Source: Flavobacterium commune (lineage in GTDB: Bacteria > Bacteroidota > Bacteroidia > Flavobacteriales > Flavobacteriaceae). Taken from it: 64,000 nt of DNA. Positions 10,890 through 55,552 of this stretch are shown here, piece after piece. The first letter of the stretch is position 1; the number at the start of each line of letters is the position of its first letter. The notes under the pieces are model-generated. The model was not told the origin of the DNA, did not search any database, and saw only the letters and a list, made by a program, of their open reading frames with translations. The position numbers and the translations under genes are program-made. The DNA is taken from positions 3,782,001-3,846,000 of the forward strand of contig NZ_CP017774.1 of assembly GCF_001857965.1 (NCBI RefSeq). Reading direction: 5' to 3'.

Positions 10890-10907
10890 ACTAATCTTAA
10901 AAACTAA

Positions 10908-12277
10908 GGTAGTGTCTCACTAACTGTGTAAGTTGAAAAGTTATTCTGAAAAATATTTGAGCTCCTTTAAAAAGCTCAAAAATATTTTTCGGAAATAACT
11001 TTTTGTTATTTTTAACCTTACATAATTATGATTGACAAAGACGACTTATTAAACAACAAGGATTTCTATAAATCCTTCAAGAATGCAGAAGATTTAACCT
11101 CATTCTTTCAAACGATGCACAAACGAGCTGTTGAACATATGCTCGAAGCCGAACTTGATGCTCATTTAGACAATGAAAAACACGATAAAACCACTAAGGG
11201 TAATTATCGCAACGGACACGGAACTAAAAAAATAAAGACCTCTTTTGGTCAACAAGAAATCAAAGTTCCTCGTGACAGAGATTCTTCCTTTAATCCCCTG
11301 CTTGTTCCTAAAAGAGAAAATATAGCCCAAGGTATTGAAAATGTCATCATCTCACTTTATGCTAAAGGCATGAGTGTTAGTGATATTGAAGAACAGATCA
11401 AGGAGGTATATGATTTTGAAGTGTCTTCTTCGACTATATCACGTATTACCAACACAATTACAAATGAAGTAGTTACTTGGCAAAACAGGCCACTAGAAGA
11501 GCTTTATTTAATTGTTTGGATGGATGGTATTGTTTTTAAGGTTAGAGAAGGTTCGAAAGTTATCAATAAAACTATTTATTTAGCTGTAGGGCTTAACAGA
11601 GATGGTAAAAAAGATGTTTTAGGAATGTGGCTTGGTAAGAATGAAAGCAGTAGCTTTTGGATGAGTGTTTTGACTGATTTAAAAGCCCGTGGCGTTGAAG
11701 ATATACTTATTACAGCTACCGATAATTTAAATGGATTTACTCAAACAATCCGAAGTGTTTTCCCTGAATCTCAAACACAAATCTGCGTGGTTCATCAAAT
11801 TAGAAATGCTTGTAAATATGTCGTTTGGAAGGATCGAAAACAATTTACTGCCGATATGAAACATATTTATAACGCTCCAACAAAACAAGCAGTAGAGTTG
11901 GCTTTAAACGATTTTGCAGACAAATGGGAATCCAAATATTCTTATGCAATTAAATCCTGGCGAGATAACTGGGATGAATTGACCGTATTTTTTGATTTTC
12001 CAATTGAAATTAGAAAAATCATTTATACAACAAATTTAATCGAGAACTTAAACGGAAAAATTAGAAAATACACTAAAAATAAAATGTCGTTCCCAACAGA
12101 TGATGCTGTATTAAAATCGGTATTTTTGGCTTTAAGAGAAGCGACCAAAAAATGGTCAATGCCTATTCAAAATTGGGGAATTGTTTTAAACCAATTTACC
12201 CTTATATTTGAAAAAAGGCTCCGATTATAAAAACGAAGCCTTAACTTTTCAACTTACACACTTTTTGGGATAGTGTC
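10908..12277 (+). mobile_element. IS256-family insertion sequence, copy 1
   Basis: A 1370-bp element bounded by imperfect inverted repeats that share TGTGTAAGTTGAAAAGTTA. Its limits are fixed by comparison with the copy at 23581-24950, where similarity stops at the same bases. The flanks AAAACTAA (10900-10907) and AAAAATAA (12278-12285) differ at one position and may be a slightly decayed 8-base target duplication. Confidence 0.9.
11028..12230 (+). CDS. IS256-family (Mutator-type) transposase
   Basis: A 400-residue complete DDE transposase of the IS256 family. The first catalytic Asp lies in [13 protein letters not shown], the second in [10 protein letters not shown], followed by the family segment [13 protein letters not shown]. 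The Glu is in [17 protein letters not shown]. It differs from the second copy at two residues that I can see (D/N in EVYDFEV and V/A in KQAVELAL), so one copy arose recently from the other or both came from the same source. Confidence 0.95.
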
Positions 12278-12348
12278 AAAAATAAAAATTATGAATAATA
12301 TAGTTTGATTGGTTTTATCCTAAATTCTATTTAAATGCACCCCCCTCA

Positions 12349-13260: not shown

Positions 13261-15189
13261 TTAATACTCCCATCTTACAAAAGCCTCCATAGCAGCGTAA
13301 CTGGAAAGCCCTAATTTATCATATAAGGCTGCTGTTTCACTATTTCGGTCTTCAGCTCTTTGCCAAAATTCTCTGGCATCCGATCCCTGGAAAACAACCC
13401 CGTCTTTTTGAGATTGGTGTTTAAAAATACCATGTCTTTTAGCTAAAACCTGATCCGGACTCATTGGTACTGCCATTTCAATCTCATCAATTCCCCATTC
13501 CTGCCAGGCTCCTCTGTACAACCACAACCAACAATCTTTCATAAAATCCTTAGATTTTAAATTTTTCACAGCTTCAAAAATAGCATCCAAACAAACTTTA
13601 TGGGTACCGTGTGGATCGGCTAAATCACCAGCTGCATAAATCTGATGTGGTTTAATTTTCTCAATCAAATCCATCGTAATTTGGATATCATCCTGACCAA
13701 TAGGATTCTTTTTAATCGTACCTGTTTCATAAAACGGCAACTCCATAAAATGGATTTGGTCATCAGCTAAACCAACATAATGACTAGTTGCACGCGCTTC
13801 TCCTTTTCGAATTAAACCTTTGATATAACGAACTTCTGGAATGTCGATTTCACTGCTTTTTTTATTTTTAAGAAAAGTAATTGATTTTTTAAAAATAGTT
13901 TCAGCTTCAAGACTTTTTATACCAAATTTCTCATTATAATCGCAAACAAAATTGGCAAAACGTAATGCCTCATCATCGGCTACAGCAATATTTCCTGAAG
14001 TTTGATAAGCAACATGTACTTCATGTCCTTGTTCTTGTAAACGCATAAAAGTACCTCCCATACTAATGATATCATCGTCAGGATGCGGACTAAAAATCAA
14101 TACCTTTTTTCTTGAAGGTAAAGCTCTTTCAGGTCTGTTCTCGTCATTTGCATTAGGTTTCCCCCCTGGCCATCCAGTAATGGTATTTTGAAGTTTATTG
14201 AAAATTTTAATATTGATTTCGTAAGCAGGTCCTGAATCGGCTAATAAATCACTCATACCGTTTTCGATATAATCAGCATCAGTCAACATCAAAATAGGTT
14301 TCTTTAATTTTAATGCTAAACCTAAAACTGCTTTTCGGATTAATTTATCAGTCCAGACAATTTTTTCAACTAACCAAGGAGTATTGATTCTTGTTAGTTT
14401 TGAAGAAGCTTCTTTGTCTAAAACAAAAACCGCATTATCATGTTCCTGTAAAAAGGAAGCCGGTACCTGATTTGTTACCTCTCCTTCTACAGAGGCTTTG
14501 ATAATATTCGATTTTCCTTCGCCCCAAGCCATCAAAATAACCTGTTTAGCTTCCATTATTTTTTTTACTCCCAAAGTAATTGCTGTTCTTGGCGTATTAC
14601 TCAACCCTGAAAAATCTCCACTTGCCGCAACTCTGGTAATATGATCTAAGGCTACTAATCTGGTTTTTGAATTCTGTAAAGAACCTGATTCGTTAAAACC
14701 GATATGACCGTTACCTCCAATTCCAAGAATCTGCAAATCAATTCCTCCCAAAGATTCAATTTTAGCTTCATAATTAGCACAATAATCGGCTATAGCTTCT
14801 TTTGATAAAGTTCCATCTGGAATATTTACGTTTTCAGGCAGAATGTCAACATGGTTAAAAAATAATTCTTTCATGAATCGCACGTAACTGTTTATCGAAT
14901 CCGGTTCCATTGGGTAATATTCATCCAGATTGAAGGAAACCACATTTTTAAAACTCAAACCTTCTTCTTTGTGCAAGCGTACTAATTCAGCATATAACCC
15001 CTTTGGTGAAGAACCTGTTGCCAAACCTAAAATACATAATTCATTACTTACCTGTTTTGATTTGATCAATGAAGCTATTTGTTGAGCAACAGCCTTAGAA
15101 GCCTCCGTTGAATTTTCAAAAACTACTGTATCAATATTTTCAAATCTTTTTTCAAAACCTGTCGCTTTGTCTATATTACTTTTTAACAT
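13261..15189 (-). CDS. nagB: glucosamine-6-phosphate deaminase fused to PIG-L/LmbE deacetylase domain
   Basis: A 642-residue two-domain cytoplasmic protein. The N-terminal half (about 1-270) is a NagB isomerase-deaminase that turns glucosamine 6-phosphate into fructose 6-phosphate and ammonia. Seen motifs are ATGSSP (57-62), FNLDEYY with D89, and GGNGHIGFNE with H162 and E167. The C-terminal half (from about 360) is a PIG-L/LmbE-type zinc deacetylase with HPDDD at 369-373. Fusions of this kind occur in other Bacteroidota. No separate nagA stands in the window, so I infer that the second domain may remove the acetyl group from the HexNAc phosphate. It is the last gene of the operon. Confidence 0.9.
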   Translation of the reverse strand: MLKSNIDKATGFEKRFENIDTVVFENSTEASKAVAQQIASLIKSKQVSNELCILGLATGSSPKGLYAELVRLHKEEGLSFKNVVSFNLDEYYPMEPDSINSYVRFMKELFFNHVDILPENVNIPDGTLSKEAIADYCANYEAKIESLGGIDLQILGIGGNGHIGFNESGSLQNSKTRLVALDHITRVAASGDFSGLSNTPRTAITLGVKKIMEAKQVILMAWGEGKSNIIKASVEGEVTNQVPASFLQEHDNAVFVLDKEASSKLTRINTPWLVEKIVWTDKLIRKAVLGLALKLKKPILMLTDADYIENGMSDLLADSGPAYEINIKIFNKLQNTITGWPGGKPNANDENRPERALPSRKKVLIFSPHPDDDIISMGGTFMRLQEQGHEVHVAYQTSGNIAVADDEALRFANFVCDYNEKFGIKSLEAETIFKKSITFLKNKKSSEIDIPEVRYIKGLIRKGEARATSHYVGLADDQIHFMELPFYETGTIKKNPIGQDDIQITMDLIEKIKPHQIYAAGDLADPHGTHKVCLDAIFEAVKNLKSKDFMKDCWLWLYRGAWQEWGIDEIEMAVPMSPDQVLAKRHGIFKHQSQKDGVVFQGSDAREFWQRAEDRNSETAALYDKLGLSSYAAMEAFVRWEY

Positions 15190-15228
15190 TGTTAGTTTAT
15201 TTTTAAATTTTATATTGTATTTATTCGC

Positions 15229-16611
15229 TTATTTTCTTGACCAGCTGGTGTATTTATGCCCTTTATGTGCAAAGAAGAAAATCATTAAATAAGCAGGTAA
15301 AAGCATTAAATATGCTATTTGATTTCCTGTTTTTGCTGTGGATAAAGCTGCTGTAGCTTGATTAGACATATTGATACTTTCGGCTAAAAGCCCATATAAT
15401 AAAGGAAAAATTGCTCCACCTATGATAGACATAATTAGTATTGCTCCACCAATTTTTGTGTATCCTCCTAAATTCTGAAGAGCCAATGGCCAAATTGCCG
15501 GCCAACAAAGTGCATTGACCAAACCGAATAGTGCTACTAAAATAATTACCAAAGGCAAAGCGGGAATAAAAGGTAATTGAATCATAATACTCGGAGACAG
15601 CAACACAATGGAAATCACTAAAATCACTCCCAAAATACCTGAAATTTTTAATGCATTAACCTGAGATAAGTATTTAGGTATTAATGCGATTCCAACAATA
15701 TAACCTATCAACATTGCTGTCATGGTAAACGAGGTCAACTTAAGATAAAAATCCCCATTTTCACCATAAACTCCGAGCTGTTTTCCAAAAGTTCCTATTG
15801 TATCTCCCGCTATTACCTCTGCTGCAACATACAACATCAGAGTTATTGCCCCCAAAACAAGTTGTGGATACTTGAATGCATTACTAATTTGTTTATAGAT
15901 ACTCAAATGAGCTACATGGCCATCTTCATCTAAATCAATTTCAGGAAGAGGGGATAACTTCGCTAAGATTGCTAAAATTAAAATTACGATTCCCATATAA
16001 ATATACGGTGTTTGCAATTGAAGTGCCAGCGTATCCAATGCTTCTGATCTAGACACAGTGCCAAGCATAGCTATTTTTTCTTTAGTATAATCCTTCATGT
16101 TAGACAATACCAAAGCAGTTAATACTAAAGGTGCTATAAATCCGGCTAATTTGTTGGCAATTCCTAAAACACTAATTCTTGCCGCTGCACTCTCCCTTGG
16201 ACCAATTACAACGACATAAGGATTTGCCGCAGTCTGTAAAATGGCTAATCCTGTTCCCATTATGAACAAAGCTACTAAGAACAAAAGAAAAGTTCTCATT
16301 TCAGCAGCTGGATAAAACATGAATGCCCCAATAGCAATTACTATTAAACCGAGTGAAATACCATTTTTATACCCAACTTTTTCTATAATCCAAGAAGACG
16401 GAATAGCCATTACAAAATAAGCAATATAAAAAGCAAAAGCTACAAAATAAGCCTCTGATGGTGATAATTCACAGGCTATTTCAAAAAATGGAATCAAAGG
16501 TCCATTTAACCAGGTAACAAACCCTAATATAAAAAATAACAGAGTTAAAATAGCCATCGGTATTAAAACTTTACTTTGACTTTTTTCTAATGTGTTTTTA
16601 ATTTGTGTCAT
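15229..16611 (-). CDS. sugar MFS transporter, FucP/NagP type
   Basis: A 460-residue inner-membrane transporter with about 12 hydrophobic helices. QTAANPYVVVIGP followed by AAARISVLGIANKLAGF marks the FucP/NagP branch of the major facilitator superfamily, which takes up fucose, N-acetylglucosamine, glucose or galactose with protons. It stands between the epimerase and nagB genes of an amino-sugar operon. I therefore infer that it carries an N-acetylhexosamine, most likely GalNAc released from glycosaminoglycan. It would leave the sugar unphosphorylated, which fits the kinase in the same operon. Confidence 0.85.
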   Translation of the reverse strand: MTQIKNTLEKSQSKVLIPMAILTLLFFILGFVTWLNGPLIPFFEIACELSPSEAYFVAFAFYIAYFVMAIPSSWIIEKVGYKNGISLGLIVIAIGAFMFYPAAEMRTFLLFLVALFIMGTGLAILQTAANPYVVVIGPRESAAARISVLGIANKLAGFIAPLVLTALVLSNMKDYTKEKIAMLGTVSRSEALDTLALQLQTPYIYMGIVILILAILAKLSPLPEIDLDEDGHVAHLSIYKQISNAFKYPQLVLGAITLMLYVAAEVIAGDTIGTFGKQLGVYGENGDFYLKLTSFTMTAMLIGYIVGIALIPKYLSQVNALKISGILGVILVISIVLLSPSIMIQLPFIPALPLVIILVALFGLVNALCWPAIWPLALQNLGGYTKIGGAILIMSIIGGAIFPLLYGLLAESINMSNQATAALSTAKTGNQIAYLMLLPAYLMIFFFAHKGHKYTSWSRK

Positions 16612-16683
16612 TTTGCTTATCGTTAAATTAATTTATCATGCTTTAAATAATAACCAATTCGTCTGGAATCCCAAACCCTTCTT

Positions 16684-17607
16684 TTATTTTAGCAATTCCT
16701 GATGATAAAAAGCAATGGTTTCTTCTAAAGCTGTTTCAATAGAATGAGCTGGCTTAAAACCTAAATTATTGAATTTTGATGGATCTGCTTTCGAATGCTT
16801 AATATCACCTGAACGTTCTTCTAAGAATTGTATTTGGGATTTAGAATTTGTTATTTTAATTATTTTTTCTGCCAATTCTAAGATAGAAGTACTATACCCC
16901 AAAGCTACATTATAGGTTTCATTACCAATTTGAGATGCCAAAATATTGGCTTTCACAACATCTTTCACATAAATAAAATCTCTAGTTTGTGAACCGTCTC
17001 CATAAATAGTTATCGGCTGGTTTTGAAGGGCTTTATTAATAAAAATAGGCACTGCTGCCGCATAAGCTGATTGAGGATTTTGCCTTGGTCCAAAGACATT
17101 AAAATATCGCAATGAAGCTGTCGGAACATTCCATTGATCCTGATACATCTTTAAATAGAATTCTCCATCTAATTTTGTAATTGCATAAGGAGTCATTGGC
17201 TCAGGAATCATAGTTTCTACTTTAGGCAAAACAGGATTATTTCCATAATTAGCAGCTGATGAAGAAAGCACCACTTTGCAGCCATTGTTTTTTCTTGCTG
17301 CCTCCAGGATATTAATTGTTCCGATGGTGTTGATATCAATACATTCATCCAAACGCAATAATGATTCAGGAACACTAACTAAAGCTGCCAAATGAAAAAT
17401 ACTACTTGCTCCTTGAACTAACTCATCAACAAGCCCCTTGTCTCTAATATCTCCTTTAACAAACTGAACATTTAATCCGTCGAGATTTTTTTCGAATCCA
17501 GTTCTTAGACTATCTAACACAATAACTTGGTGTCCTTCTCCAGATAAATGTTCAGCAATATGACTTCCTATAAATCCCGATCCTCCTGTAATTACATATT
17601 TTTTCAT
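16684..17607 (-). CDS. UDP-N-acetylhexosamine 4-epimerase-like (WbpP/GalE type)
   Basis: A 307-residue extended short-chain dehydrogenase. It shows the NAD motif TGGSGFIG (7-14), SSS at 115-117, and catalytic YAITK at 141-145. The segment NVFGPRQNPQSAYAA (170-184) resembles WbpP-type UDP-GlcNAc/UDP-GalNAc 4-epimerases more than GalE for UDP-glucose. The open frame begins at 17655, inside the preceding gene, but the ATG at 17607 starts directly at the Rossmann fold and is preferred. In this operon it would link UDP-GalNAc and UDP-GlcNAc; this is inference, and related dehydratases cannot be excluded. Confidence 0.85.
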   Translation of the reverse strand: MKKYVITGGSGFIGSHIAEHLSGEGHQVIVLDSLRTGFEKNLDGLNVQFVKGDIRDKGLVDELVQGASSIFHLAALVSVPESLLRLDECIDINTIGTINILEAARKNNGCKVVLSSSAANYGNNPVLPKVETMIPEPMTPYAITKLDGEFYLKMYQDQWNVPTASLRYFNVFGPRQNPQSAYAAAVPIFINKALQNQPITIYGDGSQTRDFIYVKDVVKANILASQIGNETYNVALGYSTSILELAEKIIKITNSKSQIQFLEERSGDIKHSKADPSKFNNLGFKPAHSIETALEETIAFYHQELLK

Positions 17608-17645
17608 TTCTTTCTGTTTTTTTTTAAAATTGTTTATTAAGTTAT

Positions 17646-18524
17646 TTAATTCCAATCCAATACAGGAAAATGTTTTTTCAAATAAGCCTTTACTTCTACA
17701 ATATCTTCTTTTGCAGTTAAATCAGGCACATGTTCTGAAAAAGGAATTCCTAAAGCAGTATTAGGGAAATCCTGTAATAAGTTTAAAAGCACTGTTGGTA
17801 ATTCTTTTTCGTCCCTTTCAGGGTGAACCGGACAATTTTTAAGATAAGGATATAAAGTTTCACCTTTGAACTTAAAGGCATTCATACTTACCCTAATTTT
17901 TCCATCAGCATCCTTAAAGGATTCTACAACGTCAGCCTCTGGCTTTTCAATAATATCAAGAAGACAGCTGTTTTGATTCAATTTTGCAACTGCAAAACGG
18001 GAAATACGCTCAGCAGGAAATTCCATTGCATCACGATCATAGCTAATAAACGCATTAGGACTATTGGTTTCACGAAGTGCATACAATGCCTCAGCTGAAT
18101 ATAAATTATCACTATTACAAACCGAATAAAATTGGGTATTTAATTCAGGATATTGCTCAACTGCCTGAAATAAAGCGTCGGCAGTTCCAAATGGTTTGAC
18201 TCTTCCTTCTGGAACGTATTGAACAGCAAAAGAAATATTCAATCCGTGAAAATCATTGTTCTTATCCTTATTACCATAAAACGATTTAAACAACTCTCCC
18301 TGTTCCCCTATAATGATATAGATGTTTTTATATCCCGCTTTTTTTGCATTTACTAAAAGATAATCCATTAAAGGTCTTCCATTAGGACCAACTCCTATCA
18401 AACCTTTACTTCTTTCGTTTGCTTGTGCGATTTCCTCTTCTGTCAAATTTTCAACTATCGCTTCTTTTTTCATTCTTGAAGAAGCTCCCCCTGCTAAAAT
18501 TATTAAATTAGTATGCATATTCAT
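17646..18524 (-). CDS. sugar-phosphate nucleotidyltransferase
   Basis: A 292-residue protein of the NTP-transferase fold. The pyrophosphorylase signature LAGGASSRMKKE (10-21) is at the N-terminus, and VCNSDNLYSAE holds the likely metal-binding Asp. No acetyltransferase repeat domain follows, so it is not a GlmU. It lies directly behind a GHMP sugar 1-kinase, with only 14 bases between them. I therefore infer that it converts the hexosamine 1-phosphate to a nucleotide sugar, perhaps UDP-GalNAc. Sugar and nucleotide specificity cannot be read from the sequence. Confidence 0.85.
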   Translation of the reverse strand: MNMHTNLIILAGGASSRMKKEAIVENLTEEEIAQANERSKGLIGVGPNGRPLMDYLLVNAKKAGYKNIYIIIGEQGELFKSFYGNKDKNNDFHGLNISFAVQYVPEGRVKPFGTADALFQAVEQYPELNTQFYSVCNSDNLYSAEALYALRETNSPNAFISYDRDAMEFPAERISRFAVAKLNQNSCLLDIIEKPEADVVESFKDADGKIRVSMNAFKFKGETLYPYLKNCPVHPERDEKELPTVLLNLLQDFPNTALGIPFSEHVPDLTAKEDIVEVKAYLKKHFPVLDWN

Positions 18525-18538
18525 TTTTATTAAAAAAT

Positions 18539-19624
18539 TTACAATGTTTTTACTATTCTTGCTCCTGGATCTACATTTACAGCATAAGCAGCAACTGCTC
18601 CAGCAGCCAACATTGCTTCTACCACCTTAGATTCTTTTCCTGGTTCAGCTATCGCTACAATACTGCCTCCACCTCCTGAACCAACAATTTTAGCTCCATA
18701 AGCGCCTGCCTCTAGTGCAGCATTAATCATAGCATCAATTCTTGGAACTGTTATTTTTAGTAAATCTCTCAAAACAGCATGATGACAGTTCATTAATTCG
18801 CCAATCTTTTTTAAATCAAGAGAAGGTTTTTGAAATTCAATTAAAGCCATTTTAGTATAATGGTGATTCTTGATTGCTGCTTCAAAATAAGGAATCAATC
18901 GGTCTGGCAAAAAGTTGCAGTACTGCTTTAAATCCTCAATTTCAGTCTTATTCAAATCGAAGTTTTCAAAATGACTTTTTACAATTTCTATTGCCAATAA
19001 TGCATTTGCTTTTAATTCCCCTATTAAACCAATGGTCTCTTTTGGAACTCCTGAAACCCCCGTTACCAGACCATCTAAGCCTTTTCCTATGACCGTAACC
19101 GAAAATGGATTTACAGTATTTATATGTACCACATTGCCAACACCGATACTAAAATGATCCATCATACCTCCAGGCTCACCGTGCTCCACAACTTCAGACA
19201 AATAACCTATTTTAGAAATAAATTCCGGTGTTACTTCTTCATTAACACCAAAAGCTTCGACCAAAAAATTAATCCACGCCAACAATAAAGCTGATGAACT
19301 TGATGTCCCAGAATTGATTGGAATATTACCAGTTATAGTAATATCATATCCTACATTAGGTACACAACCATACCTTCTTAAAACCCTTAACGAAGAAGCA
19401 AAATAATCACGAGGTTCTAACTCCGAAAAAACCTCATTGATATCTATCACTCTAAGCTGATTAATATCGACCATATCCAACTTGAATACACCTGTTTTAT
19501 TTTGTACTGCAGAAAGCTTTATATTTCTACTTATTGCACAAGCAATAACAGGCAATCCAAGATAATCCTGATGATCTCCAAAAAGGCAAGTTCTCCCTGG
19601 CGCTAACGATACAATATTTTTCAT
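18539..19624 (-). CDS. galactokinase-type GHMP kinase
   Basis: A 361-residue GHMP-superfamily sugar kinase. The three family motifs are present: PGRTCLFGDHQDY (9-21), SGTSSSSALL (105-114) and GSGGGGS (315-321). The first one resembles the galactokinase signature, with Asp replacing Glu before His. The family phosphorylates the anomeric hydroxyl. As first gene of the operon with a nucleotidyltransferase, an epimerase and NagB, it is a candidate N-acetylgalactosamine 1-kinase; galactose or another hexosamine remains possible. Its promoter and two regulator sites lie at 19709-19792. Confidence 0.88.
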   Translation of the reverse strand: MKNIVSLAPGRTCLFGDHQDYLGLPVIACAISRNIKLSAVQNKTGVFKLDMVDINQLRVIDINEVFSELEPRDYFASSLRVLRRYGCVPNVGYDITITGNIPINSGTSSSSALLLAWINFLVEAFGVNEEVTPEFISKIGYLSEVVEHGEPGGMMDHFSIGVGNVVHINTVNPFSVTVIGKGLDGLVTGVSGVPKETIGLIGELKANALLAIEIVKSHFENFDLNKTEIEDLKQYCNFLPDRLIPYFEAAIKNHHYTKMALIEFQKPSLDLKKIGELMNCHHAVLRDLLKITVPRIDAMINAALEAGAYGAKIVGSGGGGSIVAIAEPGKESKVVEAMLAAGAVAAYAVNVDPGARIVKTL

Positions 19625-19708
19625 TTTAACAAATTAAATAACTAATAAACAATACATTAAACAACTTAAAACTCAAAACATCAACCCCATTTTTTAAGTT
19701 TTATAATG

Positions 19709-19739
19709 CGAAACTATAGATTTAATTTAAGTAAAACAA
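19709..19739 (-). promoter_or_regulatory. promoter of the amino-sugar operon
   Basis: On the - strand TTG (19737-19739) and TAGTTTCG (19709-19716) are 20 bases apart, close to the Bacteroidota -33/-7 pattern. The operators at 19756-19792 lie just upstream. The spacing is the same as in the susC and PL8 promoters. The rest of the 398-base gap up to the lacI start holds nothing else recognisable. Confidence 0.6.
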
Positions 19740-19755
19740 GAAAAAACAATAAAAA

Positions 19756-19769
19756 TGTGCTCGAACACA
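19756..19769. promoter_or_regulatory. LacI-type operator, site 1
   Basis: TGTGCTCGAACACA matches the palindrome TGTGCTCGAGCACA at 13 of 14 positions. It starts 17 bases upstream of the -33 element of the amino-sugar operon, between that operon and the divergent lacI-type gene. Confidence 0.8.
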
Positions 19770-19778
19770 CCAAAACAA

Positions 19779-19792
19779 TGTTCTCGAGCACA
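19779..19792. promoter_or_regulatory. LacI-type operator, site 2
   Basis: TGTTCTCGAGCACA matches the palindrome at 13 of 14 positions. It begins 23 bases after site 1, about two helical turns, so both could be bound on roughly the same face of the DNA. Confidence 0.8.
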
Positions 19793-20022
19793 AAAAATAC
19801 GTTTTTTACTACTAAATTTCTATAAAACAAAAAAAAAGTGTATAATTGGATGCTAAAACAAATTTTATTAAAAAAGTAGAACTCTTAAAAGCAAAAACCG
19901 ATTTTGATATTAAAAATCCATTAATAAATTTACACTTAATATTAAAAATAACTTTACTATAAGAACTGCTAAAAAAAATAAATTGAAGCATAAAACAGAT
20001 TAAACCTGATATATTAGCATCT

Positions 20023-21063
20023 ATGAATAAAAAATATACTATAAAAGACATTGCACAATTAGCAGGAGTGTCTAAAGGCACAGTCGATAGAGTTTTACAT
20101 AACCGAGGAAAAGTTTCTCCAAAGGCGCTTGATAGTATAAATGCTGTTTTAAACGAAATAGATTATGAACCTAATCTAATTGCCCGAAATCTAAAAAACA
20201 ATAAAATATACACTATAAGTGTAGTACTCCCTGATCCGGCATACGATTCATACTGGAAGCCTTGTATCAAAGGGATTCAAGATGCCATAAAGGAATTTAA
20301 AGCTTTTAACTTATCGATTAAAGCACATTATTTTAATCCCGAAGACACAAATTCCTTTATAGATATAAATGAAAACGTATTGCAATTAAAACCAGATGCC
20401 GTACTATTAGCGCCTTTATTTTTCCATGAAGCCTTGACTGCAATTGAAAACTATAATAAACAGGGAACGCTAGTTAATGCATTCAACAACCAAGTACCAT
20501 CTGAAGAAATCAGAAATTTTGTAGGACAAAATCTTTATCAAAGCGGTAGAGTCGCAGCTAAATTAATGGAAGTTATAACTCAAAATGGACAAATTGCAAT
20601 TATTCATATTGATGAAAAATTCAAAAATGCTATACACATGCAGGAAAAAGAAAAAGGTTTTAGAAATTATTTTCTTGAAAATAAAAAATCAGATCAGGAT
20701 ATAACAACTTTAAAATTAAAAAAATCAACTTACGAAATAAAATTTACTGCTTTTTTAAAAGAAAATCCAAATCTATCTGGTATTTTCATAACTACTTCTA
20801 AGGCTTATCAAGTTGCTAGAATTATTAATGAAACTAACAATAACAAGATCTCAATTATTGGTTATGACCTACTAGAAGACAACATCAATTATTTAAACAA
20901 AGGAACAATAGATTTTCTAATTAATCAAAATCCAAAACAACAAGTATACCTAGGAATCTGTTCATTGGTAGATCATTTTATATTTGGAAAAAACATCACT
21001 CCCGAAACACTCTTACCTATAGACATAGTTAACTCTGAAAACGCCAGTTATTACATGGAATAA
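20023..21063 (+). CDS. LacI-family transcriptional regulator
   Basis: A 346-residue regulator with a LacI helix-turn-helix at residues 5-27 (YTIKDIAQLAGVSKGTVDRV) and a hinge segment ending in NLIARNLK. The C-terminal two-lobed sugar-binding domain runs from about 60 to 340. It is divergent from the amino-sugar operon. Six palindromes with a central CG, the form that LacI-family proteins usually bind, lie in front of four operons of this island, and it is the only DNA-binding regulator in the window. I infer that it controls all of them. The effector may be a hexosamine or its phosphate. Confidence 0.92.
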   Translation: MNKKYTIKDIAQLAGVSKGTVDRVLHNRGKVSPKALDSINAVLNEIDYEPNLIARNLKNNKIYTISVVLPDPAYDSYWKPCIKGIQDAIKEFKAFNLSIKAHYFNPEDTNSFIDINENVLQLKPDAVLLAPLFFHEALTAIENYNKQGTLVNAFNNQVPSEEIRNFVGQNLYQSGRVAAKLMEVITQNGQIAIIHIDEKFKNAIHMQEKEKGFRNYFLENKKSDQDITTLKLKKSTYEIKFTAFLKENPNLSGIFITTSKAYQVARIINETNNNKISIIGYDLLEDNINYLNKGTIDFLINQNPKQQVYLGICSLVDHFIFGKNITPETLLPIDIVNSENASYYME

Positions 21064-21067
21064 AAAT

Positions 21068-21718
21068 TTAAAACATTAAATGCAATACTCCAAAAGAAGA
21101 TGGAATATGAAAATCAGGAGTCTCAGTATTAGGATTTACCCAGGAAATCCAAGTTGGCTCAAAATTAATTCCATCTTCAGAATTATATTTTGCTCTAAAA
21201 ATTCCAGCTTCAATCTTATTATCTTTAATCAAATTAAACTTATTAAAAGAATCGATACTAATAGCTCCTTCTACTGTAAAACTCTTATCATTTTTTGATG
21301 ATTTTACTTTGATATCATTTTTTGGCCAGTTCCAGTTAAAATCAAATTTTTTATCAGGATAAGCTATAAAATCCATTATTCTTGCAGCAGTATCGATTTC
21401 TAAACAGTAATAAGGATTTAACGAAGTATCAGGTCTAAAAAAAAGTTCAACTCTGTCAGAATCATTGATACTGACAAAACTGTCGTCTTTGGCTACGATA
21501 TGGATTTTAGAATCAAAAACTCTAAAACAAAAAAAGAAATACACTCCATCCCATAAGGCTCTAAATTCTATTTTTGAAGGCTCCTTTATATCCCAAGGAG
21601 AAAGAAACTGAGTCAATACTTCTGCTTTATCCCAGACACCCCCCTCCCCTTTTCCTGTAATTTCCAACTCCAATTTCTCTATCAAATTAACCCTGTAAAT
21701 ATTGCTCTCTCTTTTCAT
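21068..21718 (-). CDS. carbohydrate-binding family 9-like protein
   Basis: A 216-residue protein resembling CBM9-like beta-sandwich domains: WDKAEVLTQFLSPW, the strand WDGVYFFFCFRVFDSK, and the acidic DRVELFFRPD segment are typical. No signal peptide is present, so it would act in the cytoplasm or be exported in some other way. The frame opens at a GTG (21766), but that codon lies in the promoter -7 box, so the ATG at 21718 is preferred. An operator sits inside the promoter at 21775-21788. The role is unknown; binding of a sugar ligand is inference. Confidence 0.8.
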   Translation of the reverse strand: MKRESNIYRVNLIEKLELEITGKGEGGVWDKAEVLTQFLSPWDIKEPSKIEFRALWDGVYFFFCFRVFDSKIHIVAKDDSFVSINDSDRVELFFRPDTSLNPYYCLEIDTAARIMDFIAYPDKKFDFNWNWPKNDIKVKSSKNDKSFTVEGAISIDSFNKFNLIKDNKIEAGIFRAKYNSEDGINFEPTWISWVNPNTETPDFHIPSSFGVLHLMF

Positions 21719-21765
21719 ACTATTTTTTATTTTAATGCTAATAGAACTCTTATTTCTTTTAAACA

Positions 21766-21795
21766 CAAATATAGTGTGCTCGAGAACATTTTCAA
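21766..21795 (-). promoter_or_regulatory. promoter of the CBM9-like gene with embedded operator
   Basis: On the - strand TTG (21793-21795) and TATATTTG (21766-21773), a perfect -7 match, are 19 bases apart. The spacer contains the palindrome at 21775-21788. Binding there should block RNA polymerase. No clear promoter for the divergent mutase gene is visible in the rest of this 346-base gap. Confidence 0.75.
21775..21788. promoter_or_regulatory. LacI-type operator, site 3
   Basis: TGTGCTCGAGAACA matches the palindrome at 13 of 14 positions. It lies between the -33 and -7 elements, the only one of the six sites placed inside a promoter. Confidence 0.8.
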
Positions 21796-22064
21796 TACAT
21801 TTTCTTGGAATTTTATTATCATATAGCTACTTTTGGCCTTCAAAAGAGTAAGAACACCAGAGCAACAAAAAACAACAAGCTGATTTTAAACAAAAATAAA
21901 GAAAATCATTCTCTTAAATCTTTTTGGTCTAATACTTTTATATTTCTCAAAAAGTAAAAAATCAATTCACCTCTTCAATCTACATTTTCTTTTGAAAAAC
22001 TCCATCATCAAAATAATTTTATGTATAAAATAAACACAAGTAATTTTAATAAAAATCAATAATT

Positions 22065-23438
22065 ATGACTTTAATAAAATCCATCTCAGGAATAAGAGGA
22101 ACCATTGGAGGAACTACAGGAAATGCTTTTACCCCAAATGATATTGTCACTTTTACAGCAGCTTTTGGTTTTTGGCTAAAATCTAAAGACACTACAAGAA
22201 AAAAAATAGTAATTGGTAGAGATGCCCGCCTTTCAGGAGAAATAGTTTCTAGGATTGTAAGTGGCACGCTACAATCAATGGGGTTAGACGTTGTTGATTT
22301 AGGATTATCTACAACACCAACTGTAGAAATGGCAGTAGTTGCCGAAAAAGCTTTAGGAGGTATCATCCTGACAGCCAGTCATAATCCTAAGGAATGGAAT
22401 GCCTTAAAATTACTAAATGAAAAAGGAGAATTTATTTCGGCCAAAGACATAACAACTATTTTAAAAAGTATTGAGTCTGAAAATTATGAATATGCTGATG
22501 TAGACCATTTAGGTAATTATACTATTAATACCGATTATTTTAACTTCCATATCGAAGCCATTAAAGCTTTGCCTTTAATTAATACGGAAGCTATTCAGAA
22601 AAGGAAATTCAAAGTAGTCATTGATGCGGTGAATTCTACCGGAGGAATTGCTGTTCCTTTATTATTGAATAGTTTGGGAGTAGATCAGATTGAACTATTG
22701 AATTGCGATCCCACAGGCCAATTTGCACATAACCCGGAACCACTCACAGAAAACTTAACCGAATTAATCGCAAGAATGAAAGAGGGTAATTTTGATATTG
22801 GTATTGCAGTAGATCCAGATGTCGACAGATTGGTTATTATTTGCGAAAATGGTGAGCCATTCAATGAGGAATATACGCTGGTAGCCGTATCGGATTATAT
22901 ATTATCGCACCAAAAAGGAAATACAGTTTCAAATTTATCCTCTACCCGTGCCCTAAAAGATATTACGGAAACAAGAGGAGGAAAATATTATTCAGCTGCT
23001 GTGGGAGAAGTAAATGTGGTTGAAAAAATGAAAGAAGTCAATGCCATAATTGGCGGAGAAGGAAACGGCGGAGTAATCTATCCTGAATTGCATTATGGAA
23101 GAGATGCCTTGGTTGGAATTGGTTTTTTACTAAGTTATATGGCTGAATCTGGTCTATCATTATCTGTATTAAAAGAAAGATTCCCATTATATGCTATGTA
23201 CAAACACAAAATAGATCTTCCTGACAACTTATCAATGGATAGAATTTTGGAAAAAATAAAAGCAAAATTTTCCAATTATCCTATAATTACTATCGACGGA
23301 ATCAAAATTGAAATGGATAACAGTTGGGTTCACCTAAGAAAATCAAATACCGAGGCTATTTTACGTATCTATTCAGAAGCCAACACCTATGAAAAAGCTA
23401 AGGGAATTGCGTTAGAAATTAGCGATTTAGTTCTTTAA
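22065..23438 (+). CDS. glmM: phosphoglucosamine mutase family protein
   Basis: A 457-residue alpha-D-phosphohexomutase. The catalytic phosphoserine is S105 in TASHNPKEWNAL, the metal loop DPDVDR is at 250-255, and the sugar-binding loop GEGNGG is at 331-336. It interconverts hexosamine 1- and 6-phosphates. A housekeeping GlmM would be expected elsewhere, so a copy beside the amino-sugar operon probably serves catabolism (GlcNAc-1-P to GlcNAc-6-P); this is inference. A strong inverted repeat ends the gene at 23464-23513. Confidence 0.9.
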   Translation: MTLIKSISGIRGTIGGTTGNAFTPNDIVTFTAAFGFWLKSKDTTRKKIVIGRDARLSGEIVSRIVSGTLQSMGLDVVDLGLSTTPTVEMAVVAEKALGGIILTASHNPKEWNALKLLNEKGEFISAKDITTILKSIESENYEYADVDHLGNYTINTDYFNFHIEAIKALPLINTEAIQKRKFKVVIDAVNSTGGIAVPLLLNSLGVDQIELLNCDPTGQFAHNPEPLTENLTELIARMKEGNFDIGIAVDPDVDRLVIICENGEPFNEEYTLVAVSDYILSHQKGNTVSNLSSTRALKDITETRGGKYYSAAVGEVNVVEKMKEVNAIIGGEGNGGVIYPELHYGRDALVGIGFLLSYMAESGLSLSVLKERFPLYAMYKHKIDLPDNLSMDRILEKIKAKFSNYPIITIDGIKIEMDNSWVHLRKSNTEAILRIYSEANTYEKAKGIALEISDLVL

Positions 23439-23513: not shown

Positions 23514-23580
23514 ATTTAAAGAGATTTGACAAAAATAAATTGGTTACATATCGTTTTTTGTATTCTATTTACATAAAAAA

Positions 23581-24950
23581 GGTAGTGTCTCACTAACTGT
23601 GTAAGTTGAAAAGTTATTCTGAAAAATATTTGAGCTCCTTTAAAAAGCTCAAAAATATTTTTCGGAAATAACTTTTTGTTATTTTTAACCTTACATAATT
23701 ATGATTGACAAAGACGACTTATTAAACAACAAGGATTTCTATAAATCCTTCAAGAATGCAGAAGATTTAACCTCATTCTTTCAAACGATGCACAAACGAG
23801 CTGTTGAACATATGCTCGAAGCCGAACTTGATGCTCATTTAGACAATGAAAAACACGATAAAACCACTAAGGGTAATTATCGCAACGGACACGGAACTAA
23901 AAAAATAAAGACCTCTTTTGGTCAACAAGAAATCAAAGTTCCTCGTGACAGAGATTCTTCCTTTAATCCCCTGCTTGTTCCTAAAAGAGAAAATATAGCC
24001 CAAGGTATTGAAAATGTCATCATCTCACTTTATGCTAAAGGCATGAGTGTTAGTGATATTGAAGAACAGATCAAGGAGGTATATAATTTTGAAGTGTCTT
24101 CTTCGACTATATCACGTATTACCAACACAATTACAAATGAAGTAGTTACTTGGCAAAACAGGCCACTAGAAGAGCTTTATTTAATTGTTTGGATGGATGG
24201 TATTGTTTTTAAGGTTAGAGAAGGTTCGAAAGTTATCAATAAAACTATTTATTTAGCTGTAGGGCTTAACAGAGATGGTAAAAAAGATGTTTTAGGAATG
24301 TGGCTTGGTAAGAATGAAAGCAGTAGCTTTTGGATGAGTGTCTTGACTGATTTAAAAGCCCGTGGCGTTGAAGATATACTTATTACAGCTACCGATAATT
24401 TAAATGGATTTACTCAAACAATCCGAAGTGTTTTCCCTGAATCTCAAACACAAATCTGCGTGGTTCATCAAATTAGAAATGCTTGTAAATATGTCGTTTG
24501 GAAGGACCGAAAACAATTTACTGCCGATATGAAACATATTTATAACGCTCCAACAAAACAAGCAGCAGAGTTGGCTTTAAACGATTTTGCAGACAAATGG
24601 GAATCCAAATATTCTTATGCAATTAAATCCTGGCGAGATAACTGGGATGAATTGACCGTATTTTTTGATTTTCCAATTGAAATTAGAAAAATCATTTATA
24701 CAACAAATTTAATCGAGAACTTAAACGGAAAAATTAGAAAATACACTAAAAATAAAATGTCGTTCCCAACAGATGATGCTGTATTAAAATCGGTATTTTT
24801 GGCTTTAAGAGAAGCGACCAAAAAATGGTCAATGCCTATTCAAAATTGGGGAATTGTTTTAAACCAATTTACCCTTATATTTGAAAAAAGGCTCCGATTA
24901 TAAAAACGAAGCCTTAACTTTTCAACTTACACACTTTTTGGGATAGTGTC
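23581..24950 (+). mobile_element. IS256-family insertion sequence, copy 2
   Basis: A 1370-bp element flanked by an exact 8-base target duplication, ATAAAAAA (23573-23580 and 24951-24958). It is nearly identical to copy 1, and transcribed in the same direction. It separates the amino-sugar genes from the polysaccharide-degrading genes. No other feature is visible up to 25122. Confidence 0.95.
23701..24903 (+). CDS. IS256-family (Mutator-type) transposase
   Basis: A 400-residue intact transposase, the second copy of the one at 11028-12230. The same DDE residues are present (WMDGIV, TATDNL, NLIENL). The nucleotide differences noticed are scattered single substitutions such as GTG/GCA-type changes in KQAAELAL, which are too few to suggest old divergence. 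Because the target duplication is perfect, this insertion is probably recent and the element may be active. Confidence 0.95.
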
Positions 24951-25122
24951 ATAAAAAAACAGCTTACAAAAAATATTATTCAGATAGATTTTTTAGAATA
25001 AATTGTTTTATTGTTTATACATCTAATATCATTATCAAAATAAGAGCTTAATAATATTGTAAACTAATACAAATAATTATCGTGAAAACCAAAATAAATT
25101 CATTAACTTGGTTGTAAATATA

Positions 25123-26697
25123 TCATTCTTCTCTTGTAGCTGAAATTCGTTTCAACCTTACTTCTAACTCAGGAGATAACTTTCCTGTTTTATAATAATC
25201 CCCCAAAGTATTTAACATCCATTTAGGAATCACTTGTTCAATACTAAGCGGTTTTTGCATAGTAGAATTACTTACAGCCTCATCAAAATTCAGCTCAATA
25301 CCTTCAATATTATTATAAAAGTTAGGCAATCCTGCAAGACTACTTTGAGCATTTTTGTTTTTCAAAAAATAAAAACCATTTTGTAAAACCATTTCAAATT
25401 GCTTTTCTTCAAGACCTAACAATGGAGTAAGACCTGTTTGTTTACCCCAATAAATATTTTTATTCCACTGATTATTCCTATTCAAATCTTTATAATCATC
25501 TTTAAAAAAAGTGTAACCATACTTTTTATTGTCAAAAAAGGTGTTATCACTAAGCGTAATATGGTGAGGCACATTGTAGGGAAGGTTTTTCTCTTTTGAA
25601 AAATTCTTTCTAAGCTCTTCTAAAGGATTAAAATGGATGGTGTAACCATTGTTATTAACAAACATATTTTTAGCAATAATGCTTCCAAATGCAAGCGCAT
25701 GTTCCGTTCCCTCAGCGCCAGTATTAAGATAAATAGCGGCATTACCCCTAGATTCAATTGTTTTTGACAAACTAAAATAATTCCCGGCTATAATGTGTTT
25801 GCTACCCCATATATACATGCCTCCATAGCCTTTATATTTTTCATCATCTGATAAAAAGAAATTATTAATCGCTACTTGTTTGTCACCATGACGAAAATTA
25901 AGAGTTCCTTGGCAATTTAAAACTGTATTGGCATAATATACATTTTCCATTGACTTGCTGGTTACTATTTCTGATTCCGAATCCTGACGAATAAAAAGAT
26001 TTGAATCAACTAAACAACGACCAAGTGCATTTCGGTAATACCCTACACGGATAGCACCTCCGGCATTACCTTTCTTTTTGGGATTCGAGAAAAAGCAATG
26101 ATCCACACGATGGTACATTGGTGGTGCAATTACCTGGCTTGTTTTGTCTGGAGCTTTTTGATTGTTTAAGTTAATAACCTGATCGAAGGTAAGTTTATTC
26201 GTAAAACTACAATGGTCAATGCGACAATGTGTGGGGACATTTCCGTTTTCGTCCAATGATGTAGTAATGTATGCTGAATTAGCTTCATCGAAATTGTTAA
26301 ATGCACAATTGGAAACCCTGCAATAGCTGGCATACATAGCAATAAGTCCGGGTCCATGTGACTTCCATTGATTTGGATTACGGTTTCCATTGGTAAAATA
26401 AATGCCGTTAAGCTCTGTGTATGTACCATACATAGCCACTTTCACGTCTCCACAGAAAATTACACTACCTGGTGTTTCCGCAATTAAAACAATTGGTTTA
26501 CTGCTGCTTCCATTTTGTTTAAGCAATAATTGAATATCCTTATATTCTCCCTTTTTAAATACCAGGCTGTCTCCGGGTCTCAAATTATTTAAGACTTTAT
26601 ATGTTTGAGCAACATTATCAACATAGATTTTTTTGGCAAAAATGTTAGTGTTAATACCAATTAATACAACGAAAGATAAAAAACATTTAATGCGCAT
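25123..26697 (-). CDS. polysaccharide lyase family 6, chondroitinase-B-like
   Basis: An exported right-handed beta-helix lyase of 524 residues. The ATG at 26697 is preferred over 26790 because it starts the signal peptide (MRIKCFLSFVVLIGINTNIFA). The PL6 catalytic pair is visible as K248 in VTSKSMEN and R269 in LNFRHGD, with calcium-binding acids in DSESE just before. The spacing matches the Lys250/Arg271 pair known for Pedobacter heparinus chondroitinase B. It would cleave dermatan sulfate by beta-elimination; alginate lyases share this family and cannot be fully excluded. It is the last gene of the island's lyase/sulfatase cluster. Confidence 0.85.
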   Translation of the reverse strand: MRIKCFLSFVVLIGINTNIFAKKIYVDNVAQTYKVLNNLRPGDSLVFKKGEYKDIQLLLKQNGSSSKPIVLIAETPGSVIFCGDVKVAMYGTYTELNGIYFTNGNRNPNQWKSHGPGLIAMYASYCRVSNCAFNNFDEANSAYITTSLDENGNVPTHCRIDHCSFTNKLTFDQVINLNNQKAPDKTSQVIAPPMYHRVDHCFFSNPKKKGNAGGAIRVGYYRNALGRCLVDSNLFIRQDSESEIVTSKSMENVYYANTVLNCQGTLNFRHGDKQVAINNFFLSDDEKYKGYGGMYIWGSKHIIAGNYFSLSKTIESRGNAAIYLNTGAEGTEHALAFGSIIAKNMFVNNNGYTIHFNPLEELRKNFSKEKNLPYNVPHHITLSDNTFFDNKKYGYTFFKDDYKDLNRNNQWNKNIYWGKQTGLTPLLGLEEKQFEMVLQNGFYFLKNKNAQSSLAGLPNFYNNIEGIELNFDEAVSNSTMQKPLSIEQVIPKWMLNTLGDYYKTGKLSPELEVRLKRISATREE

Positions 26698-26808
26698 GGT
26701 TATTCTACTTTGGATGTTATATGCCTTTAATTTGGAGTTGAAATATAAAAATGATTCTGGATTTAATGACCTAATATCCTTTTTGTTCATTTTTATGAAA
26801 ATTATGAT

Positions 26809-34538: not shown

Positions 34539-35753
34539 CTACAAATACCAATCTTTGTAACGTAATAATGCTTCTAGGAAATAATAATCGGCATAAGTAA
34601 GAGGTACATCAATTTCACTTTTATGAGGAATTGATCCTACACTATGCTTCAAAAGAAAACCACCATTAGAACCTAATTGTGCTCGATATTTAGGACTAGA
34701 TAATGACTTTAAAATAATTTTAGCAACATCAACATAATTTTGTTTTTCTTTTCCTGAAGTATATTGTCCTAATTCCAGCAAGGCTGAGGCAAACACGGAT
34801 GCCGCTGATACATCTCTTAGCGCATCAGGGATTTTAGGGTCATCAAAATCCCAATACGGAATTTTATCGGCGGGTAAATTAGGATGGTTCAATATAAATT
34901 TTGCAATTCCTTGTGCCTGATTTAAGTAAACAGGATCTTTTGTAAAACGGTACATCATAGTATAACCGTAAAGTGCCCAACCTTGACCTCTACTCCATGA
35001 ACTAGAATCTGAATACCCTTGAGCGGTAACTTTTTTACGAACTTCTCCAGTATTTAAATCATAATCTAGTACATGGTAGCTACTATAATCAGGTCTAAAA
35101 TGATTTTTAATTGTGGTATTAGCATGATTTCTTGCTATATCGGCAAAACTTTTATCAGTACTATTTTGGCTTGCCCATTCCAGCATTTCAATATTCATCA
35201 TATTATCAATAATAACCGGACCTACAAATCCTTTTTGTCTCAAGCCTCCATCGGTAATTTCCCAAGATTGGATCACTTTGGCATTAGGACGGTATCTTGT
35301 TGCCAATGATTTAGCCGATTCCAGAATTACTTTTTTATACTCTTCATTTTTAGTTAATCGAAACGCATTCCCATAACTGCAAAACATCATAAAACCTAAA
35401 TCATGGTTTTTAGTGAAATACTTTACTGTATCTAAAATCGCTAATCTTTTTTTAGCATCTTCAAATACCCATGGTTTTTTAGTATATTCATAAATATATA
35501 GAAGCGTTCCCGGATAGAAACCACTACACCACCAGTACACATCAGAATTAATATGCTTGTTATTACTAAATGTTCTTGGCATTGAATCCAAAGGAGTCGC
35601 TTTCTCCAAATATTTATATTGCTTTGCTGCAAATACAAAATTATCCTGAATCATTTTTTTCATTACTGTCTTTTCTTTCTTATTAGCTTTTTGTGCAGAA
35701 ACTGACAAGCTATAAAAAGATAGCAGTAATAAAAGATATTTAAGTATTTTCAT
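34539..35753 (-). CDS. GH88 unsaturated glucuronyl hydrolase
   Basis: A 404-residue exported enzyme with signal peptide ending in LSVSAQ. The GH88 aspartates are D118 in NHDLGFMMF and D183 in IIDNMMNIEML; GYSDSSSWSRGQGWALYGY is characteristic. It hydrates the enol ether of delta-4,5 uronic acids and so removes them from the disaccharides released by PL8/PL6 lyases. It lies in the susC operon between susD and the beta-helix gene. A second GH88 stands at 58927-60125 outside the island. Confidence 0.92.
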   Translation of the reverse strand: MKILKYLLLLLSFYSLSVSAQKANKKEKTVMKKMIQDNFVFAAKQYKYLEKATPLDSMPRTFSNNKHINSDVYWWCSGFYPGTLLYIYEYTKKPWVFEDAKKRLAILDTVKYFTKNHDLGFMMFCSYGNAFRLTKNEEYKKVILESAKSLATRYRPNAKVIQSWEITDGGLRQKGFVGPVIIDNMMNIEMLEWASQNSTDKSFADIARNHANTTIKNHFRPDYSSYHVLDYDLNTGEVRKKVTAQGYSDSSSWSRGQGWALYGYTMMYRFTKDPVYLNQAQGIAKFILNHPNLPADKIPYWDFDDPKIPDALRDVSAASVFASALLELGQYTSGKEKQNYVDVAKIILKSLSSPKYRAQLGSNGGFLLKHSVGSIPHKSEIDVPLTYADYYFLEALLRYKDWYL

Positions 35754-37501: not shown

Positions 37502-37520
37502 CTGAAAAGAATTAATGTTA

Positions 37521-40500: not shown

Positions 40501-40684
40501 TTTAGTCCCTTTTACAGAAACTGTAACCCCAGGAAGAGGTTCATTTAGATTATCATTTACTGAACCTGATATTATTCTGTTTTGTGCATGTATAAATGCT
40601 GGAGCAATCATACAAAAAAACGCCCATTAAAAACTGCTTTAAAGCAATATTAAATATTGGGAATTTCAATTGGTAATTTTTCAT
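37521..40684 (-). pseudogene. susC: frameshifted SusC/RagA TonB-dependent transporter
   Basis: A transporter of about 1050 residues, read in three long frames plus a short start. The ATG at 40684 (MKNYQLKFPIFNIALKQFLMG) leads into the signal. A T7 run (complement of 40614-40620) shifts the frame before MIAPAFIHAQNR. The carboxypeptidase-like domain (SGSVNDNLNEPLPGVTV), the TonB box region (EEVVVIGYG) and the plug follow. Further shifts lie near 39678 and at 39102-39107. The barrel ends normally at 37521. All three breaks can be repaired by one base in a homopolymer, so sequencing error is as likely as a dead gene. Confidence 0.85.
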
Positions 40685-40771: not shown

Positions 40772-40785
40772 TGTGCTCGAGCACA
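40772..40785. promoter_or_regulatory. LacI-type operator, site 4 (perfect palindrome)
   Basis: TGTGCTCGAGCACA is a perfect 14-base palindrome with a central CG. It begins 18 bases upstream of the -33 element of the susC promoter. Confidence 0.85.
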
Positions 40786-47149: not shown

Positions 47150-47225
47150 TTTTTTTACTATTAATTTCAATACTAAGCTGGTTCTATTTTTATTACCTAA
47201 ACTAAAACTTAAAATCTATATGTTT

Positions 47226-52583: not shown

Positions 52584-52597
52584 TGTTATCGAGCACA
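52584..52597. promoter_or_regulatory. LacI-type operator, site 5
   Basis: TGTTATCGAGCACA matches the palindrome at 12 of 14 positions. It starts 15 bases upstream of the -33 element. Confidence 0.75.
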
Positions 52598-52603
52598 TAA
52601 TTA

Positions 52604-52617
52604 TGTTTTCGAGCACA
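52604..52617. promoter_or_regulatory. LacI-type operator, site 6
   Basis: TGTTTTCGAGCACA matches the palindrome at 12 of 14 positions and begins 20 bases after site 5. The paired arrangement is like that in front of the amino-sugar operon. Confidence 0.75.
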
Positions 52618-55366: not shown

Positions 55367-55552
55367 CTTAAACTGTAATTTTTATTTGCATATCCACCGT
55401 AATCAACTAAAAATAATAAATTCCTTAATCCAATTTTCAAAATTTGTTTTCAACATTTTTTGTACTAGTTTGTCATAAAAAAGCATACCTTTGTCTTTGA
55501 ATTAATTAAGAATTATAACTTAAATTTAAGCGGATTTAAACCAGCCTAGAAC

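Follow-up and report, generated by a model that had tools for sequence, protein, structure and literature searches.

A GHMP-kinase operon beside chondroitinases in Flavobacterium commune, predicted to degrade N-acetylgalactosamine through nucleotide-sugars

N-acetylgalactosamine (GalNAc) makes up half of chondroitin and is the anchor of mucin O-glycans. The Aga pathway, likewise a route of GalNAc catabolism, runs by AgaA/AgaS and tagatose-6-phosphate (PMC5583593), whereas AgaS had no match in the genome described here. How, then, might a bacterium of this kind break down GalNAc? We addressed this question in a stretch of 64,000 nucleotides from Flavobacterium commune (contig NZ_CP017774.1, positions 3,782,001 to 3,846,000; hereafter the window), which belongs to a single-contig genome of 3.85 Mb that is 99.99% complete (G000). 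Beside its chondroitinase genes stands an operon that probably serves to catabolize GalNAc via nucleotide-sugars to fructose-6-phosphate, a prediction supported by the genes present and how they are conserved, by a replacement of the kinase pair in other genomes, by the company of GalNAc-releasing families and by the positions of an operator-like motif.

In window coordinates, the reverse strand encodes a GHMP-family sugar 1-kinase, predicted to be a GalNAc 1-kinase (18539-19624; PF00288, PF08544 and PF10509); a sugar-1-phosphate nucleotidyltransferase (17646-18524; PF00483, NTP_transferase), predicted to be a pyrophosphorylase for the uridine diphosphate (UDP) derivatives of GalNAc and N-acetylglucosamine (GlcNAc); an SDR epimerase (16684-17655; PDB matches including WbgU and WbpP), predicted to be a WbpP/WbgU-type UDP-N-acetylhexosamine (UDP-HexNAc) 4-epimerase; a FucP/NagP-type MFS transporter (15229-16611; NagP model, below its cut-off), the predicted GalNAc importer; and a fusion of NagB deaminase with a PIG-L deacetylase domain (NagB::PIG-L, 13261-15189; NF002557). 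A LacI-family regulator (20023-21063) and an accessory GlmM-type phosphohexosamine mutase (22065-23438; TIGR03990) are encoded on the forward strand and, on the reverse strand between them, a CBM9-like protein that is conserved in the cluster (21068-21766); the regulator and the CBM9-like protein were recognized by domain matches. Open reading frames (ORFs) and domains confirmed every gene that a preliminary description of this DNA had named, at its coordinates and grouped with the LacI regulator, although that list had passed over the CBM9 gene inside the same interval.

In the proposed route, the NagP-type carrier would import GalNAc and the GHMP kinase would convert it to GalNAc-1-phosphate, from which the nucleotidyltransferase would form UDP-GalNAc and pyrophosphate. 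The WbpP-type epimerase would turn UDP-GalNAc into UDP-GlcNAc, and the same nucleotidyltransferase, running backwards with pyrophosphate, would release GlcNAc-1-phosphate and UTP. The accessory GlmM-type mutase would then yield GlcNAc-6-phosphate, the PIG-L domain glucosamine-6-phosphate and acetate, and the NagB domain fructose-6-phosphate and ammonia. UTP and pyrophosphate would both be recycled, so that the net cost would be one ATP, and the LacI protein would coordinate the operon with lyase and SusC/D genes. Within this route, we give pyrophosphorolysis by the same nucleotidyltransferase somewhat better than an even chance of being the way from UDP-GlcNAc back to GlcNAc-1-phosphate.

The nucleotidyltransferase, whose most similar named proteins and genomes belong to Flavobacterium, was used to follow the operon through the phylum. 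Matches (E up to 1e-20) were found in 30 of 395 phylum genomes and 16 of 170 genera, and its relatives are encoded in 68 named loci, for which counts are limited by contig ends and 10-kb flanks, many of which stop before the hydrolases. The clustering proposed in the preliminary description exceeds chance in these loci: the GHMP kinase is adjacent in 66, and NagB::PIG-L is present in 59, LacI in 58 and the MFS transporter in 49. The epimerase is adjacent in only 12, which are all of the loci where it is present (12/12); CBM9 occurs in 46, the mutase in 7 and GH109 in 10. Outside the genus, 20 neighbourhoods (L160-L175, L181-L184) included a GHMP kinase of the same kind in 15 cases and a related epimerase in 8. 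In L181-L183 (genomes G013, G034 and G131) the homologue is paired with a short SDR and a GHMP kinase was not found alongside; these homologues are probably something else, and their genomes are still counted among the 30. Two loci are unusual in their own right. A chondroitin-type cluster of Flavobacterium (L046:6231-7316) has no usual kinase beside the nucleotidyltransferase, and its opposite strand encodes a distant GHMP kinase of 37% identity. In a distant family, kinase, nucleotidyltransferase and epimerase are followed by a 781-residue protein (L164:6156-8501) with partial NagB-like similarity and no Pfam match at 1e-5, possibly a divergent deaminase.

In two genomes of the same genus (G174 and G206), a NahK-type kinase and another nucleotidyltransferase replace the GHMP pair within the same cluster. 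Their clusters (L156, L157) encode, in this order, CBM9, LacI, a 302-residue nucleotidyltransferase, a 367-residue APH kinase, the epimerase, the MFS transporter, NagB::PIG-L, the mutase and SusC, and the nucleotidyltransferase of the operon type had no match in either genome. The G206 kinase matches the N-acetylhexosamine 1-kinase 4ocu (E 1.9e-67) and its nucleotidyltransferase matches 3pnn (E 8.3e-94); the latter is only 23% identical to the window enzyme over 253 columns, while the LacI regulators of G206 and the window are 59% identical. A NahK-type (APH) N-acetylhexosamine 1-kinase had no match in the F. commune genome. Across the 395 phylum genomes, NahK-type kinases (E up to 1e-30) were found in 56, none of which is among the 30 with the GHMP type (hypergeometric p 0.008, kinship ignored). 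Among the NahK loci (the best 30 of 57 matches, with 1.5-kb flanks), this second nucleotidyltransferase is present in 16, and a GH109-like gene in 8.

The families found near the module also point to GalNAc. According to PMC12269599, all earlier characterized GH109 enzymes are classed as N-acetylgalactosaminidases. Within the genus, GH109 (PF21252) was present in 9 of 10 module-positive genomes (7 of 8 with the GHMP front end, 2 of 2 with the NahK front end) and in none of 14 module-negative genomes (Fisher 7.6e-6, kinship ignored). As none of the 14 control genomes matched, the sensitivity of this search rests on the genus itself. The sole module-positive genome of the genus without GH109 is that of the window, which has the chondroitin locus. 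When G304, from another genus, is included, ten module-positive genomes have one GH109 each; in eight the distance to the module is about 11-30 kb, and in two the gene is on a different contig. At least 4 of the 20 neighbourhoods from outside the genus (L161, L163, L168, L170; some proteins scanned) have GH109 or GH123 no more than about 7 kb away from the kinase pair, and locus L185, of the same genus, has a GH123 gene in an adjoining SusC/D cluster. PL8, beside which the preliminary description had suggested a search for the same gene set, is present in five named loci (L032-L035 and L046), just 5 of 68, compared with 10 of 68 for GH109, and was rejected as a general partner of the module. 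Proteins with DUF3472 (21 of 68 named loci) and DUF5107 recur near GalNAc clusters (L158, L161, L185 and others) and may be unrecognized parts of GalNAc-glycan breakdown.

Footprinting of the LacI-kinase intergenic region gave the palindrome TGTGYTCGARMACA. In the window, operator-like palindromes lie in the LacI-kinase gap (19756-19769 and 19779-19792), in the CBM9-mutase gap (21775-21788), ahead of the SusC region in the chondroitin/dermatan locus (40772-40785, perfect) and, as two neighbouring sites, ahead of the PL8 genes (52604-52617 without mismatch, 52584-52597 with one). When up to two mismatches are allowed, the window has 12 matches (both strands included) at six places versus 2.3 expected, and none of 100 shuffles reached 12. 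In the whole genome, the exact motif occurs at six places only, all within the GalNAc/chondroitin system: two before the kinase and one each between CBM9 and mutase, before SusC, before PL8 and before the SusC of a second copy of the chondroitin locus. Allowing one mismatch in the genome added one further place near PL8; a reversed control pattern gave 3 matches. In G206 and G174 the exact motif stands ahead of both the NahK-type operon and SusC. In a scan of 19 genomes, 7 of 9 module-negative genomes had no exact match among the matches listed, which do not cover G154 and G257 or the module-positive G222, G245 and G285. In module-negative G154 the motif matched 15 times when one mismatch was allowed. 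The motif is likely a control site common to the operon and the lyase genes, at which the LacI protein would bind.

The individual proteins fit the proposed steps to differing degrees. The kinase model (mean pLDDT 92.9) matches galactokinases in fold, with a TM score of about 0.83, and the nucleotidyltransferase model (mean pLDDT 93.1), encoded by one good copy in the genome, matches the nucleotidyltransferases RmlA, AGPase and GlmU (TM about 0.7). NagB::PIG-L, of which the genome has three genes, scores 1062.5 bits over its full length against NF002557 (cut-off 384), and the HPDD and HGTH motifs are intact in all 71 NagB::PIG-L sequences compared. NagA (TIGR00221) passed its cut-off in 7 of 20 genomes; no protein of the F. 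commune genome did so (best, 24 bits), nor did any in the module-positive G285, G304, G206 and G174. The PIG-L domain is likely a deacetylase able to stand in for NagA. The mutase scores 497.8 bits against the GlmM model TIGR03990 (cut-off 439) and is 55% identical to the other GlmM of the genome (G000:C1:3327747-3329114). All 20 genomes have a GlmM-type gene and only F. commune, G174 and G206 have two, and the operon mutase was rejected as the housekeeping GlmM. Together, the NahK-type replacement, the association with GH109, GH123 and PL8, the second mutase and the motif common to the chondroitin locus support the GalNAc route and the order of steps that the preliminary description had put forward.

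For the epimerase, the C2 and C5 pocket positions, which we placed by motif and partly by WbpP and GalE numbering, hold Ala200 and Ser288, residues of the HexNAc type. These are as described for group 3 epimerases in PMC6668579, where WbpP has Ala at C2 and groups 2 and 3 have a small residue, Cys or Ser, at C5. They argue against a pocket like that of Escherichia coli GalE, without singling out the operon protein, and were dropped as a test of its specificity. A close epimerase was found only in F. commune, G174 and G206 in a search of 20 genomes; the shared pocket residues give genomes without the operon epimerase a plausible stand-in.

Several observations weigh against this interpretation. 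The GHMP kinase stays under the cut-off of every NCBIfam model that it matched, and the transporter reaches 448.6 bits against the NagP model NF046060 (cut-off 625); since both miss their family cut-offs, their sugars rest on context. UTP as the nucleotide and the reverse reaction are predicted steps. The Ala/Ser pocket is common to all 54 epimerase homologues examined and does not discriminate among them, and a close epimerase is found in just 12 of 68 named loci. A homologue of 36-40% identity, which would have to serve elsewhere, occurs in 18 of the 19 other genomes searched, while G304 has the kinase pair but no epimerase match at this threshold. NagA passes its cut-off in 6 of 11 module-positive genomes, so the role of PIG-L is argued from the remaining ones. 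The mutual exclusion of NahK and GHMP kinases is in part phylogenetic, as is the co-occurrence with GH109. Of the 58 intergenic regions between LacI and kinase in the named loci, 49 have the exact motif, but these are the regions from which it was derived and so are not independent; the other 9 lack the exact motif, and with one mismatch it occurs at four places outside the system. Finally, the three ORFs of SusC in the window may reflect an assembly fault or decay.

The main alternative keeps the GalNAc route and changes only the return step, which would be carried out by the housekeeping GlmU in reverse or by uridylyl exchange of the GalT type, with the operon nucleotidyltransferase working forward only. 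We regard this as possible but doubtful. The bifidobacterial cluster has NahK, GalT and GalE (PMC6668579), and the galactokinase of the F. commune genome makes GalT plausible. However, both kinds of kinase have a nucleotidyltransferase of their own beside them, in 66 of 68 GHMP-type loci and in 16 of the best 30 of 57 NahK matches. Because each front end brings its own nucleotidyltransferase, a dedicated reversible enzyme is favoured. The accessory hexosamine-phosphate mutase in the cluster, which suggests that the 1-phosphate leaves the loop, favours it as well. It is very unlikely that the kinase acts on another galacto-configured sugar, such as galactose, and that the link to GalNAc is accidental, even though its nearest folds are galactokinases and it has the galactose-binding signature PF10509. 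The kinase reaches only 101.8 bits against the galactokinase model TIGR00131 (cut-off 226.65), and a full galactokinase is encoded elsewhere in the genome (C1:1262590, 319 bits), so that galactose does not require the GHMP kinase. This argues against a kinase for galactose only, a case that the preliminary description had allowed for, and galactose was set aside as the substrate. The substitution by a NahK-type kinase and the company of GH109, GH123 and PL8 also speak against another sugar.

Even less probable, in our estimation, is that the operon supplies surface glycans with UDP-GalNAc salvaged from GalNAc and does not serve carbon use. For such salvage the kinase, nucleotidyltransferase and epimerase would be enough on their own, and GHMP-type GalNAc salvage kinases are known in eukaryotes. 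Against it stand NagB::PIG-L in 59 of 68 loci, the importer, the regulator, the accessory mutase and a motif common to PL8 and SusC genes. Least probable of all is a path from GalNAc-6-phosphate through galactosamine-6-phosphate to tagatose-6-phosphate, in which the mutase would shift the phosphate and the NagB domain would be a galactosamine-6-phosphate isomerase. NagB and AgaI are related, and NagB::PIG-L does match NF007291, but at 110 bits it misses the cut-off of 271, whereas it passes that of the nagB model (249.5 versus 236.9 bits). Such a path would also leave the nucleotidyltransferase and the epimerase idle. AgaS had no match in any of 11 genomes, F. commune included (7 of 14 control genomes were positive). 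No tagatose-bisphosphate aldolase exceeded its cut-off in 11 genomes, each of which has one weak match (about 100 bits versus 443.55). The preliminary description had reported no Aga genes in the operon region; this stands for AgaS, and for an aldolase of the AgaY kind it stands as none over the cut-off. On these grounds the Aga route was rejected.

The locus next to the operon is of the chondroitin/dermatan sulfate type (25-52 kb in the window). On the reverse strand it encodes a chondroitinase B family protein, the predicted dermatan lyase (25123-26790; PF14592), a GH88 family protein predicted to release GalNAc from unsaturated disaccharides (34539-35753; PF07470), a SusD-like protein (35840-37543), a SusC-like receptor in three ORFs with domains in the outer two (37521-40611) and two PL8 family lyases (44081-47170 and 47287-51819); four sulfatase genes and a sulfatase-modifying enzyme are also present. 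The locus occurs twice in the genome: 30051-48722 and G000:C1:4001-22672 differ by ten single-base gaps and no substitution, and SusC is one long ORF in the other copy. These gaps point to an assembly error in one of the copies more than to decay. Outside the main locus, at 57474-60125, lies a second sugar transporter together with a second GH88-like gene. Mobile elements were also observed. Two copies of an insertion sequence (IS)-like element, 99.6% identical and in the same orientation (10906-12287 and 23579-24959), flank the GalNAc operon and the mutase like a composite transposon; their transposase is presumably of the IS256-like type. An identical element with an rve-type integrase is found at 54135-55464 and G000:C1:22671-24000, and the distal PL8 ORF of the second locus copy stops just short of it. 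In F. palustre (L032), the same operon block stands directly beside PL8.

How does this operon relate to known systems? The bifidobacterial galacto-N-biose/lacto-N-biose (GNB/LNB) pathway exits as GlcNAc-1-phosphate. It comprises a phosphorylase, NahK, GalT and GalE, and 1-phosphorylation of GalNAc and epimerization between UDP-GalNAc and UDP-GlcNAc are found there too (PMC6668579). In contrast, the present operon has a GHMP kinase for NahK and a PF00483 nucleotidyltransferase in the position of GalT, with the mutase and NagB::PIG-L in the cluster. The operon is predicted to work like the bifidobacterial route but is not a member of it by the defining kinase. In the pyrophosphorylase (Isselbacher) route, described mainly in eukaryotes, a pyrophosphorylase both activates a sugar-1-phosphate and gives it back, and an epimerase acts between the two steps; that route handles galactose, whereas here the sugar would be N-acetylated and the enzyme is a bacterial PF00483 protein. 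The human GalNAc kinase GALK2 (PDB 2a2c) is also of the GHMP family, but it is a weak sequence match (E 4.2e-16), distant and longer (a 478-residue chain versus 361). Searches of the open-licence literature turned up no paper describing, to judge by title and the opening of the abstract, a bacterial operon with a GHMP-type GalNAc 1-kinase.

Within the phylum, the operon can be compared with the BT4240 locus of Bacteroides thetaiotaomicron, where a GalNAc 1-kinase lies beside GH109 and an MFS carrier (PMC11992087). BT4240 is an APH-family kinase related to that of G206, in contrast to the GHMP kinase here, and is 39% identical to the Bifidobacterium longum enzyme. It prefers GalNAc about 275-fold over GlcNAc; growth on GalNAc requires it, and so does about half of the growth on chondroitin sulfate (PMC11992087, 2025). 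By term counts, the main text of that paper does not mention UDP, Leloir or epimerase, and the present operon supplies candidates for the steps after the Bacteroides kinase. The AgaS/AgaA route was sought across human gut genomes in a 2017 survey, and the 76 genomes in which it turned up all belong to Actinobacteria, Firmicutes and Proteobacteria (PMC5583593).

A broader proposal, on which we are evenly divided, is that Bacteroidota as a whole use GalNAc through a nucleotide-sugar loop, with two interchangeable front ends, a GHMP kinase with one nucleotidyltransferase or an unrelated NahK-type kinase with another. A two-way pyrophosphorylase would close the loop, and the exit would be by the mutase and a NagB::PIG-L able to replace NagA. 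A single LacI operator would, in the present lineage, tie this loop to the chondroitin, GH109 and GH123 loci. If this is true, the nucleotidyltransferase that accompanies NahK would supply the step missing after the Bacteroides GalNAc kinase. The operon offers an unrelated candidate kinase for this task, a likely substitute for NagA and a regulator motif for finding more members, and its route would likely supply steps still missing from the account of how a large bacterial phylum uses GalNAc.

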